Origin: Pulveribacter suum
GTDB lineage: Bacteria; Pseudomonadota; Gammaproteobacteria; Burkholderiales; Burkholderiaceae_C
Direction: 5' to 3'
Length of the DNA: 64,000 nucleotides
Assembly (NCBI RefSeq): GCF_003013695.1
Contig: NZ_CP027792.1
Location: 1,694,501-1,758,500 of the forward strand
Both the position numbers and the translations under genes were made by a program. Shown piece by piece: positions 4,859 through 7,000 of the stretch. How positions within the stretch are numbered: position 1 is the first letter of the stretch; each line of letters begins with the position of its first letter. Below the pieces are notes generated by a model. It had not been told where the DNA came from and searched no databases. It saw only the letters and a list, made by a program, of their open reading frames with translations.

Positions 4859-4958
4859 GGTGACGAGCCTTACCCCCGGCACTGGCTCCACGGTTAGGGC
4901 TGCTTGGTTCCCCACCTGACCCGGTTGGCCGCTTCCCCATGCGGGGAGGCCCGTCACC
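4859..4958 (-). ncRNA. ffs: 4.5S RNA of the signal recognition particle
   Basis: Read on the minus strand, the roughly 100-base transcript closes on itself through GGTGACG at the 5' end and CGTCACC at the 3' end. It carries the conserved apical core CGGGTCAGGTGGGGAACCAA followed by GCAGCCC, which is the Ffh-binding internal loop and tetraloop region of the small bacterial SRP RNA. It lies divergently upstream of dnaX, an arrangement I know from other betaproteobacteria. The minus strand beyond the 3' end is pyrimidine-rich (TCTCTTTTCTCTC) and may serve as terminator. Ends are inferred from the terminal pairing and may be off by a few bases. Confidence 0.93.
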
Positions 4959-4968: not shown

Positions 4969-5019
4969 CCCGTCCCGGCGAGGCTGCGAGACTGGACGGG
5001 CCACATAGAATCGCACTCC

Positions 5020-6900
5020 ATGTCGTACCTCGTGCTTGCCCGCAAATACCGTCCCAGGACCTTCTCCGAGATGGTGGGCCAGGAGCACGTGGTGCAGGCG
5101 CTGACCAACGCGCTGACCCAGCAGCGGCTGCACCACGCCTACCTCTTTACCGGCACGCGCGGCGTGGGCAAGACCACCGTCTCGCGCATCCTTGCCAAGT
5201 CGCTCAACTGCCAGGGGCCGGACGGGCAGGGCGGCATCACCGCCACGCCTTGCGGCGTGTGCCCGGCCTGCACGGCTATCGACGCCGGCCGTTTTCCCGA
5301 CTACACCGAGCTGGATGCGGCGTCCAACCGCGGCGTGGACGAGGTGCAGGGCCTGCTGGAGCAGGCGGTGTACAAGCCGGTGCAGGGGCGCTTCAAGGTC
5401 TTCATGATCGACGAAGTGCACATGCTCACCAACACGGCGTTCAACGCCATGCTCAAGACGCTGGAAGAGCCGCCCGAGTACCTGAAGTTCGTGCTGGCCA
5501 CGACCGATCCGCAGAAGGTGCCGGTCACCGTGCTCTCGCGCTGCCTGCAGTTCAACCTGCGCCCCATGGCGCCCGAGGTGGTGCTGGAGCACCTGGGCCA
5601 CGTGCTGGGCGCCGAGGGCATCGCCGCCGAGCCGCAGGCGCTGCGCCTGCTGTCGCGCGCTGCGCGCGGCTCCATGCGCGACGCGCTGTCGCTGACCGAC
5701 CAGGCGATTGCCTTCGGTGGCGGCCAGCTGCAGGAAGCCGCGGTGCGCCAGATGCTGGGCAGCGTGGACCGCAGCCACGTCTTCGCGCTGATCGAGGCGC
5801 TCGCGCGCAGCGATGGCCAGGCCGTGCTGCACACCTGCGAAGTGCTGCGCATGCACGGCCTGTCGGCGGCCAGCACGCTGGAGGAGATGAGCGCCGTGCT
5901 GCAGCGCATGGCCGTGCTGCAGGCCGTGCCCCAAAGGGCTGCCCAGGCCGATCCCAGCGACCCGGACGCCCCCGAGATCGCCCGCCTGGCCGCCCTGCTG
6001 CCGGCCGACGAGACGCAGCTGCTCTACAGCATCTGCCTGCACGGGCGCACCGAGCTGGGCCTGGCGCCGGACGAGTACGCCGCGCTGACCATGGCGCTGC
6101 TGCGACTGCTGGCCTTCAAGCCCGCCCAGGGCCCGGGGCAGTCAACGCCGCAGCCCGGCCCGGCTGAAAAAAAAACTCTGAGCCCCGCGCCGGCTGAGCC
6201 GGCCCCCAGTGCGGCGCCGGCACGGCCGGCCGCGCCCATGCAGGCGCCCCCCGCTGCTGCGCCCGCCCCCGCCGCCCCGGCGCCCCGGCCCGAGCCGTCC
6301 CAGGCTCTGCCACCCGCCGACGCGCACCCGGCTGTGCGCCTGCCCGTGCGGGCTCCGGAAGAAATTGGACGAAAACAGGCTCCAACGCCCGCCAGTACTG
6401 CGCAAGCAGCTACGGAAACCGTAGCGGTTCCGGTGCGCACCGCACCCGAACCGGGCGCCCGCACCCAGCCCCTGCGGGGCGCCGGTGGCCTGCCGGCGTC
6501 CGAGCCGCTGGTGCGCACCGAGGAGGGCGATGTCTGGCACGCCACGGTGCAGCGCCTGGTCGAAGACGGCGCCATTACTGCACTGCCGCGCGAGCTGGCG
6601 CTGCAGTCGCAGCTGATCGCCCGCGACGGCGAGCACTGGCTGCTGCGCATCGAGCGCGAGTCGCTGAACCAGGGCGCCGCGCACGAGCGCCTGCGCGCCG
6701 CGCTGGAGGCTGCCGGCTGCGCCAGGCAGATCAGCGTCGAGGTGGGCCGCATCAGCGACAGCCCGGCGCGGCGCAACGCCCACGCCGCCACCGAACGCCA
6801 GCGGCGCGCCGAGGCCATCGTCCACGCCGACCCCTACGTGCAGGACCTGATGCGCGAATTCGGGGCCAAAATCGTGCCGGGCAGCATCCGGCCGGCATAG
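5020..6900 (+). CDS. dnaX: DNA polymerase III subunit tau (and probably gamma)
   Basis: The 626-residue clamp-loader ATPase drives beta-clamp loading and, as tau, links the polymerase cores and helicase. Visible parts are the Walker A GTRGVGKTT with Lys51, a zinc module with Cys64, Cys78, Cys81 and Cys84, the Walker B region IDEVHMLT, and the sensor 1/SRC region ATTDPQKVPVTVLSRC. A proline/alanine-rich linker spans roughly residues 375-490, and the conserved tau C-terminal domain ends in GAKIVPGSI. I chose ATG 5020; an upstream in-frame start would run into the SRP RNA promoter. It is followed by ybaB and recR, the usual order. The linker contains an A9 run able to produce a short gamma form, and a palindromic repeat copy. 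Confidence 0.97.
   Translation: MSYLVLARKYRPRTFSEMVGQEHVVQALTNALTQQRLHHAYLFTGTRGVGKTTVSRILAKSLNCQGPDGQGGITATPCGVCPACTAIDAGRFPDYTELDAASNRGVDEVQGLLEQAVYKPVQGRFKVFMIDEVHMLTNTAFNAMLKTLEEPPEYLKFVLATTDPQKVPVTVLSRCLQFNLRPMAPEVVLEHLGHVLGAEGIAAEPQALRLLSRAARGSMRDALSLTDQAIAFGGGQLQEAAVRQMLGSVDRSHVFALIEALARSDGQAVLHTCEVLRMHGLSAASTLEEMSAVLQRMAVLQAVPQRAAQADPSDPDAPEIARLAALLPADETQLLYSICLHGRTELGLAPDEYAALTMALLRLLAFKPAQGPGQSTPQPGPAEKKTLSPAPAEPAPSAAPARPAAPMQAPPAAAPAPAAPAPRPEPSQALPPADAHPAVRLPVRAPEEIGRKQAPTPASTAQAATETVAVPVRTAPEPGARTQPLRGAGGLPASEPLVRTEEGDVWHATVQRLVEDGAITALPRELALQSQLIARDGEHWLLRIERESLNQGAAHERLRAALEAAGCARQISVEVGRISDSPARRNAHAATERQRRAEAIVHADPYVQDLMREFGAKIVPGSIRPA
6167..6203 (+). promoter_or_regulatory. 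Predicted dnaX frameshift/slippage site (A9 run plus hairpin)
   Basis: Nine consecutive A residues (6167-6175) follow G6166. In the dnaX frame they read GAA AAA AAA ACT, so the heptamer A-AAA-AAA is in the correct phase for ribosomal -1 slippage. The -1 frame reaches TGA at 6195-6197. The +1 frame, which a one-base deletion in the mRNA would create, reaches TGA at 6179-6181. A perfect GCCGGC-TGA-GCCGGC hairpin lies at 6189-6203. Products would be about 386-392 residues, ending just after clamp-loader domain III. In Thermus thermophilus a run of nine A in dnaX is known to cause transcriptional slippage, and in E. coli a related A-rich heptamer drives ribosomal frameshifting. Confidence 0.65.
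6371..6425 (-). repeat. Palindromic repeat P1, copy inside dnaX (defines the family)
   Basis: P1 is a roughly 55 bp element. Written in its + orientation, it has an optional GCTATCGAAAAAA lead, then TAGCTGCTAGCGCTTG, a short spacer (often ACTGG) and CAAGCGCTGGAGCCGATTT. The AGCGCTTG and CAAGCGCT arms are inverted repeats. This copy is inverted and reads GGCTCCAACGCCCGCCAGTA then CGCAAGCAGCTACGGAAACC. It is translated as residues 451-469 of the DnaX linker, in frame and without a stop. Confidence 0.75.
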
Positions 6901-7000
6901 CGCCACGCAGCGCCGCGCGGGCCGCGCCAACAAACCGTAGTCTTTTAGATGTCCCGTTTCGCGGGAAGCCCCTCCACCAAGAAAGCAAAGGATCACCACC

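Follow-up and report, generated by a model that had tools for sequence, protein, structure and literature searches.

A conserved nine-adenine run in the dnaX linker of Pulveribacter suum and its relatives as a probable slip site for a short gamma subunit, and a different recoding cassette at the same place in Polaromonas-type genes

The window, by which the whole analysed stretch of 64,000 nucleotides from contig NZ_CP027792.1 of Pulveribacter suum is meant, contains dnaX on the forward strand (5020..6900), encoding the tau subunit of DNA polymerase III (626 aa; assigned by ORF, Pfam and NCBIfam). The gene runs as one uninterrupted tau frame from an ATG at 5020 to a TAG at 6898-6900, and its product was matched by Pfam to the ATPase (residues 20-183), the lid (190-235), domain III (238-367) and tau domain V (500-622). 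Domain III and domain V are joined by a Pro/Ala-rich linker (6121..6516, forward strand), the limits of which are approximate as they follow from the Pfam matches. Just upstream of dnaX and divergent from it, a bacterial small SRP RNA was found on the minus strand (4859-4955; RF00169, 62.5 bits).

The linker harbors a slippery run of nine adenines (A9; 6167..6175, forward strand), which begins 16 residues past the domain III match and occupies codons 383-386 in the phase xAA AAA AAA Axx (GAA at 6166-6168, two AAA codons and ACT at 6175-6177). It is followed on the same strand by a TGA in the +1 frame (6179..6181), only 3 nt after the run, and by a TGA in the -1 frame (6195..6197), 19 nt after it; the run, its phase and both stops read as the earlier note had claimed. 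Around the -1 stop lies the inverted repeat GCCGGC-TGA-GCCGGC (6189..6203, forward strand), with arms at 6189-6194 and 6198-6203 and the TGA as loop. This repeat was present as described, and the spacer between A9 and the stem, given before as about 14 nt, was measured as 13 nt. Runs of at least seven adenines are scarce in the window (five overlapping matches at three places, both strands taken together; shuffle mean 0.23), and A9 or T9 occurs at only three sites of the whole 3.36 Mb genome. At the two other sites the run adjoins an inverted repeat and looks terminator-like as judged by eye.

Products were computed for transcripts differing in the number of adenines. An mRNA with 8 or 11 adenines would be translated up to the +1 stop and give 386 or 387 aa, respectively, and one with 10 adenines would end at the -1 stop after 392 aa, as would the product of a ribosomal -1 shift. 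With 9 or 12 adenines the tau frame is read through, the A12 product having 627 aa. The computed mass of the A8, A10 and A11 products is 41.6-42.2 kDa, and the lengths agree with the former expectation that every route leads to a gamma-like protein of about 386-392 residues. Depending on the route, the computed C-terminus reads ...EKKL, ...EKKKL or ...EKKNSEPRAG. Such a predicted gamma would consist of domains I-III only, without the polymerase-binding domain V.

A genome scan yielded 576 confirmed loci, the best 80 of which were kept and all read; these named relatives are close ones because only the best 80 were retained. By record title they belong to Acidovorax, Comamonas, Delftia, Rhodoferax, Variovorax, Ramlibacter and others, and many are metagenome bins. 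An in-phase run was detected in 78 of these best 80 (76 with A9, 2 with A10), and the two loci without a run (L079 and L080) are both titled Polaromonas. For the family, 95 of 100 sampled genomes gave a match and 90 of the 95 loci were examined (G280, G287, G268, G314 and G305 were left out), which, with two members of the family taken over from the order sample, made 92 loci. Among them, A9 was present in 54, A10 in one, A8 in one and A6 followed by G in two, and 34 had no run above four adenines. In a quick protein tree the runs were confined to one branch, where 56 of 59 leaves bear one. Depending on the tree, one (L287) or two (L287 and L293) runless loci fall within this A9 branch, and gamma production by A9 would therefore not be universal.

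Both sets were then reduced to 124 non-redundant loci, chosen for a run of at least eight adenines and at most 85% identity of the flanks. All 124 runs share phase 1, and 121 are exactly A9, so that conservation of the run among relatives, a check set beforehand, was strongly borne out by the named and the non-redundant loci. The base directly after the run (6176 in the window) is C in 101 and G in 23 of the 124 relatives, and never T. The +1 stop is no more than 3 nt away in 105 of the 124 loci, compared to 3% when other positions in the linkers of these genes are taken as starting points. In the -1 frame, 89 loci have a stop at a distance of at most 13 nt (null 13%) and all 124 at a distance of at most 31 nt (null 24%). 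Both frames are closed by 31 nt in 121 loci, and the conservation of the flanking stops was thus likewise strongly confirmed. In 39 loci the +1 stop is at most 3 nt and the -1 stop at most 7 nt away, which by our reading is about as tight as two stops in overlapping frames permit here. The relatives do not amount to independent draws, and the fractions should accordingly not be taken for probabilities; the A9 rows may share a single origin, a one-clade hypothesis not being rejected.

From the codon usage of each gene, GAA AAA AAA would be expected in about 9 of the 124 genes. In 274 dnaX genes with a GC content of at least 0.55, a set in which close duplicates were retained and many genes were picked by closeness to the window, no run of at least eight adenines lies in codons 1-360 (296 kb) and 139 lie beyond (203 kb); runs of at least eight thymines number 0 in the same genes. 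A chance or drifting homopolymer, with stops that merely catch errors, would draw on the fact that out-of-frame stops are frequent in principle, and no other support for it was found. It leaves the conservation, exact length and location of the run, as well as the restriction of A9/T9 to three sites in the genome, without a reason and is very improbable.

A further explanation holds that the peptide EKKTL is conserved for protein reasons, with the A run and the +1 stop as its by-products. EKKT or EKKS is indeed present in most run-bearing relatives, and synonymous resampling that kept the peptide placed a +1 stop no more than 3 nt away in 62% of cases, a value which the 85% seen exceed modestly at the nucleotide level. 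To a large extent the +1 stop follows from EKKTL plus a residue whose codon begins with A. The same resampling returned a run of at least eight adenines in just 7% and closed the -1 frame by 31 nt in just 25%, figures to be compared with 124 real genes that were selected for having the run, and the run as well as the -1 stop is therefore kept at the nucleotide level. As AAG is the commoner lysine codon in run-bearing genes (1179 AAG vs 678 AAA), peptide conservation leaves GAA AAA AAA in nearly every gene unexplained; the -1 stop does not follow from the peptide; and the Polaromonas-type relatives described below lose EKKTL, keeping KK, yet bear a shift cassette. A purely protein-level origin is thus improbable, and EKKTL itself may exist on account of the +1 stop. 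Judged by sequence comparison, the slip-site signal is real and selected and not a product of chance.

The inverted repeat around the -1 stop had been regarded as a signal, which was not supported. Window positions 6176-6225 did not fold more stably than shuffled sequences (z -0.14; 84 of 200 shuffles folded at least as well). In the A9 set the mean z of folding was -0.35 to -0.50 downstream of the run, -0.43 upstream and -0.03 in a control stretch. Perfect 6-bp stems were found downstream in 18 of 124 loci vs 7-13 of 123-124 in five control stretches, and a perfect 6-bp stem surrounds the -1 stop in just 6 of 124 relatives. Within the genus, L352 has both GCCGGC arms with a 9-nt loop, and L222 and L353 lack any perfect stem of 6 bp over 60 nt. 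Neither the folding of the hairpin nor its rarity in relatives supports a function as stimulator at the window site. For E. coli dnaX, the full hairpin stretch folded at -19.1 kcal/mol, a raw fold energy without shuffle comparison.

The repeat might alternatively act, together with the T9 of the minus strand, as an intrinsic terminator for an antisense RNA. Its GC-rich arms lie near this T9, and the two other A9 sites of the genome have the terminator-like appearance mentioned above. However, stem and T run are 13 nt apart, a terminator scan returned nothing terminator-like at 5000-7000 and the repeat is rarely kept. The candidate was rejected on the scan and the poor conservation of the repeat, and we give it almost no credence.

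A Shine-Dalgarno (SD) element upstream of A9 was not apparent either. The window has neither AGGA nor GGAG at the corresponding position, an SD core occurs in 8 of 124 relatives vs a background of 11%, which is no enrichment, and the energies of anti-SD duplexes upstream of A9 were at background level. As a positive control, E. coli dnaX gave -7.4 kcal/mol at 7-17 nt and -7.0 kcal/mol at 10-20 nt upstream.

In Thermus thermophilus, dnaX is subject to transcriptional slippage on A9, as described in passages of PMC5009743 and PMC1088944. The window shares with Thermus dnaX, as portrayed there, the single tau frame, the nine-adenine sense run and nearby stops in both other frames; because both other frames stop nearby, any change in adenine number not divisible by three would lead to gamma. 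With its single frame, conserved run of about nine adenines and stops in both frames, the window dnaX has the sequence features of the Thermus type. The two genes differ in that the Thermus run lies seven-eighths through the gene (in a passage of PMC1088944), whereas the window run lies at codon 383 of 626, shortly past domain III. Unlike the Thermus product as portrayed there, the window gamma would lack any later domain, and slippage has been demonstrated in Thermus but is a prediction here.

The -1 programmed ribosomal frameshift of E. coli dnaX concerns the same gene, the same linker after domain III and the same kind of product, according to passages of PMC5009743 and PMC3290774. The E. 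coli gene has AGGGAG 10 nt upstream, the heptamer A_AAA_AAG, a -1 stop 2 nt after the heptamer and a hairpin. By contrast, the window has neither AGGGAG nor A_AAA_AAG; its heptamer is A_AAA_AAA followed by another A, no SD-like stretch is present, stops occur in both frames with the +1 stop being the nearer one, and the hairpin is unsupported. In a two-frame dnaX cluster identified by GeneTack, a part of PMC3711429 likewise reports poly-A of 7-10 in dnaX, which its authors attribute to transcriptional realignment; there, however, the shift is needed for the longer product (tau), whereas in the window it would be needed for the shorter one. That paper also reasons that the direction of a shift is kept among orthologs if it is ribosomal but not necessarily if the polymerase slips.

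A cassette of the E. coli type was found at the same place of dnaX in the named Polaromonas loci and in two genera of the family (g289 and g220). The genus g289 is tied to Polaromonas because L079 and L080 match its loci L321 and L320 without a difference, both in the first 1080 bases and in the 100-base cassette. For g289, 61 genomes were searched, 53 matched and 50 were examined (G348, G372 and G333 were left out); with all 5 loci of g220, the two named loci and one genome represented twice (L278 and L350), the Polaromonas-type set comprised 58 loci. A zero-frame A_AAA_AAG was present in 58 of 58, the two identical pairs included, and L367 has two. In the 47 non-redundant loci a -1 stop lies 2-14 nt past the heptamer, and the distance to the +1 stop has a median of 85 nt (range 7-514). 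All 47 have a stretch pairing with the anti-SD sequence 10-20 nt upstream (mean -7.8 kcal/mol; -9.0 kcal/mol at 12-22 nt), a count that stands for the cassette of one lineage and not for 47 events because the loci are close kin. The same pairing was obtained for 6% of the A9 set, with backgrounds of 7% in Polaromonas-type and 14% in A9 genes. The SD-like stretch is located about 15 nt upstream of the heptamer, compared to 10 in E. coli, and the hairpin signal is weak (mean z -0.61, -0.59 and -0.75 in three stretches vs -0.43 in the control). Across the 47 loci, e.g. in L247, the sequence GCCG[CT]CGAGCC is nearly invariant between 14 and 4 nt upstream of the heptamer, third codon positions included.

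The Polaromonas-type cassette and the window thus share gene, linker, family and predicted output, and differ in that the former combines A_AAA_AAG with an SD-like stretch and has a nearby stop in the -1 frame only, while the latter has A9 and stops in both frames. The hallmarks separating the two mechanisms therefore change together, at one place and within one family. Since the Polaromonas-type relatives without A9 bear the E. coli-type cassette in the corresponding position, it looks as if gamma production has been selected through one mechanism or the other, which suggests that the output is what is kept. We lean towards the view that at this one spot a single family uses two kinds of recoding, polymerase slippage on A9 and SD-stimulated -1 frameshifting, and that gamma would be under selection with exchangeable means.

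Could ribosomal -1 frameshifting on A_AAA_AAA alone make gamma at the A9 sites, as in E. coli, with polymerase slippage being unimportant? The run does contain a zero-frame A_AAA_AAA, every one of the 124 loci has its -1 stop within 31 nt, and L087, L102 and L151 of other families have A9 with a close -1 stop only. However, frameshifting alone gives no reason for the +1 stop, which is close far above the positional null and also above the frequency given the peptide, and which is relaxed where the E. coli-type cassette occurs. In addition, neither an SD element nor a good hairpin signal accompanies A9, and the heptamer is not A_AAA_AAG. This explanation is unlikely, though clearly less so than those considered above.

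Polymerase slippage of the Thermus type is favored instead because of the stops in both frames, the missing SD element and the use of A9 and not A_AAA_AAG, and the preceding choice of a Thermus-like over an E. coli-like mechanism would hold on the first two of these grounds. A9 is probably a programmed slip site by which dnaX would yield tau and a short gamma, chiefly through RNA polymerase slippage. RNA polymerase would slip on A9 and produce a share of mRNAs with 8, 10 or 11 adenines, which, translated normally, would reach a stop a few codons further on, whichever of the wrong frames is read. The outcome would be the gamma-type protein of 386-392 residues with clamp-loader domains I-III, while tau would come from templated A9 and from A12 mRNAs. 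The A10-type product may in part also arise by a ribosomal -1 shift on A_AAA_AAA, and from the closeness of the +1 stop, transcripts minus one adenine (or plus two) may matter as much as those plus one. The occurrence of slippage, its level, and the making and use of gamma are what we infer from the DNA.

The history of the two cassettes was addressed with trees. AU tests rejected none of the hypotheses, neither A9 as one clade (p 0.275) nor Polaromonas-type as one clade (p 0.828) nor both (p 0.812). Free trees placed the Polaromonas-type rows inside the A9 branch; since two of these also split genus g289, we do not claim from them that A9 is ancestral. For Thermus, tRNA-Lys content has been proposed as the reason for the mechanism (in a passage of PMC5009743). 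In a pattern search with at most 2 mismatches over 37 genomes, no clear link between tRNA-Lys anticodons and mechanism was seen among the matches listed. In the window's genome the matches had anticodons TTT and CTT. Among the matches listed, the A9 genomes G257, G049 and G311 had TTT only; the Polaromonas-type genomes G260, G391, G393 and G373 had TTT only and G330, G354 and G376 had both.

Beyond the family, 110 of 118 matching genomes of the order were read and a run of at least eight adenines was present in 18 of 110, 15 of these outside the family and some in AT-rich genes. In the class sample, 28 further loci from 105 matching genomes were read, at least 3 of these loci ending within the linker, and such a run occurred in 3 of 28. 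L102 and L151 (family f50) and L087 (family f8) have A9 followed by C-TGA, with the -1 stop after 1 nt and the +1 stop after 57-330 nt; this third layout would suit slippage by one extra adenine or a -1 shift. In L159 and L194, A10 is followed immediately by a +1 stop. At codon 391 of L195 (family f45), AAGGAGG (duplex -11.9 kcal/mol) directly precedes A_AAA_AAG and the -1 stop follows at 11 nt, an E. coli-type cassette outside the window's family. One quick tree gave 11 state changes among genes with a GC content of at least 0.55, gains and losses pooled, and on this tree a recurrent origin of dnaX runs is likely. In a genome of the same family rated 100% complete (G306:C1:4381429-4382527), the dnaX frame is broken at residue 183, far from the slip site, perhaps by a sequencing error.

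Whether gamma serves a purpose beyond a handful of model species has long been asked. According to part of the review PMC3290774, most bacteria besides enterobacteria and Thermus are without a dnaX frameshift signature and may make no gamma, and a passage of PMC1088944 notes the difficulty of predicting, from comparisons, slippage that shortens the product. In the literature searched, largely outside subscription journals, no report of this dnaX slip site, of gamma in this group or of an exchange of mechanisms was found. The slip cassette itself is of the known Thermus dnaX kind, and the surprising part is the exchange of mechanisms within one family. A dnaX signature is preserved across many related genera, and in a neighboring lineage another one occupies the corresponding site; with such matched pairs of relatives both the use of gamma and the exchange between slippage and frameshifting become directly testable.
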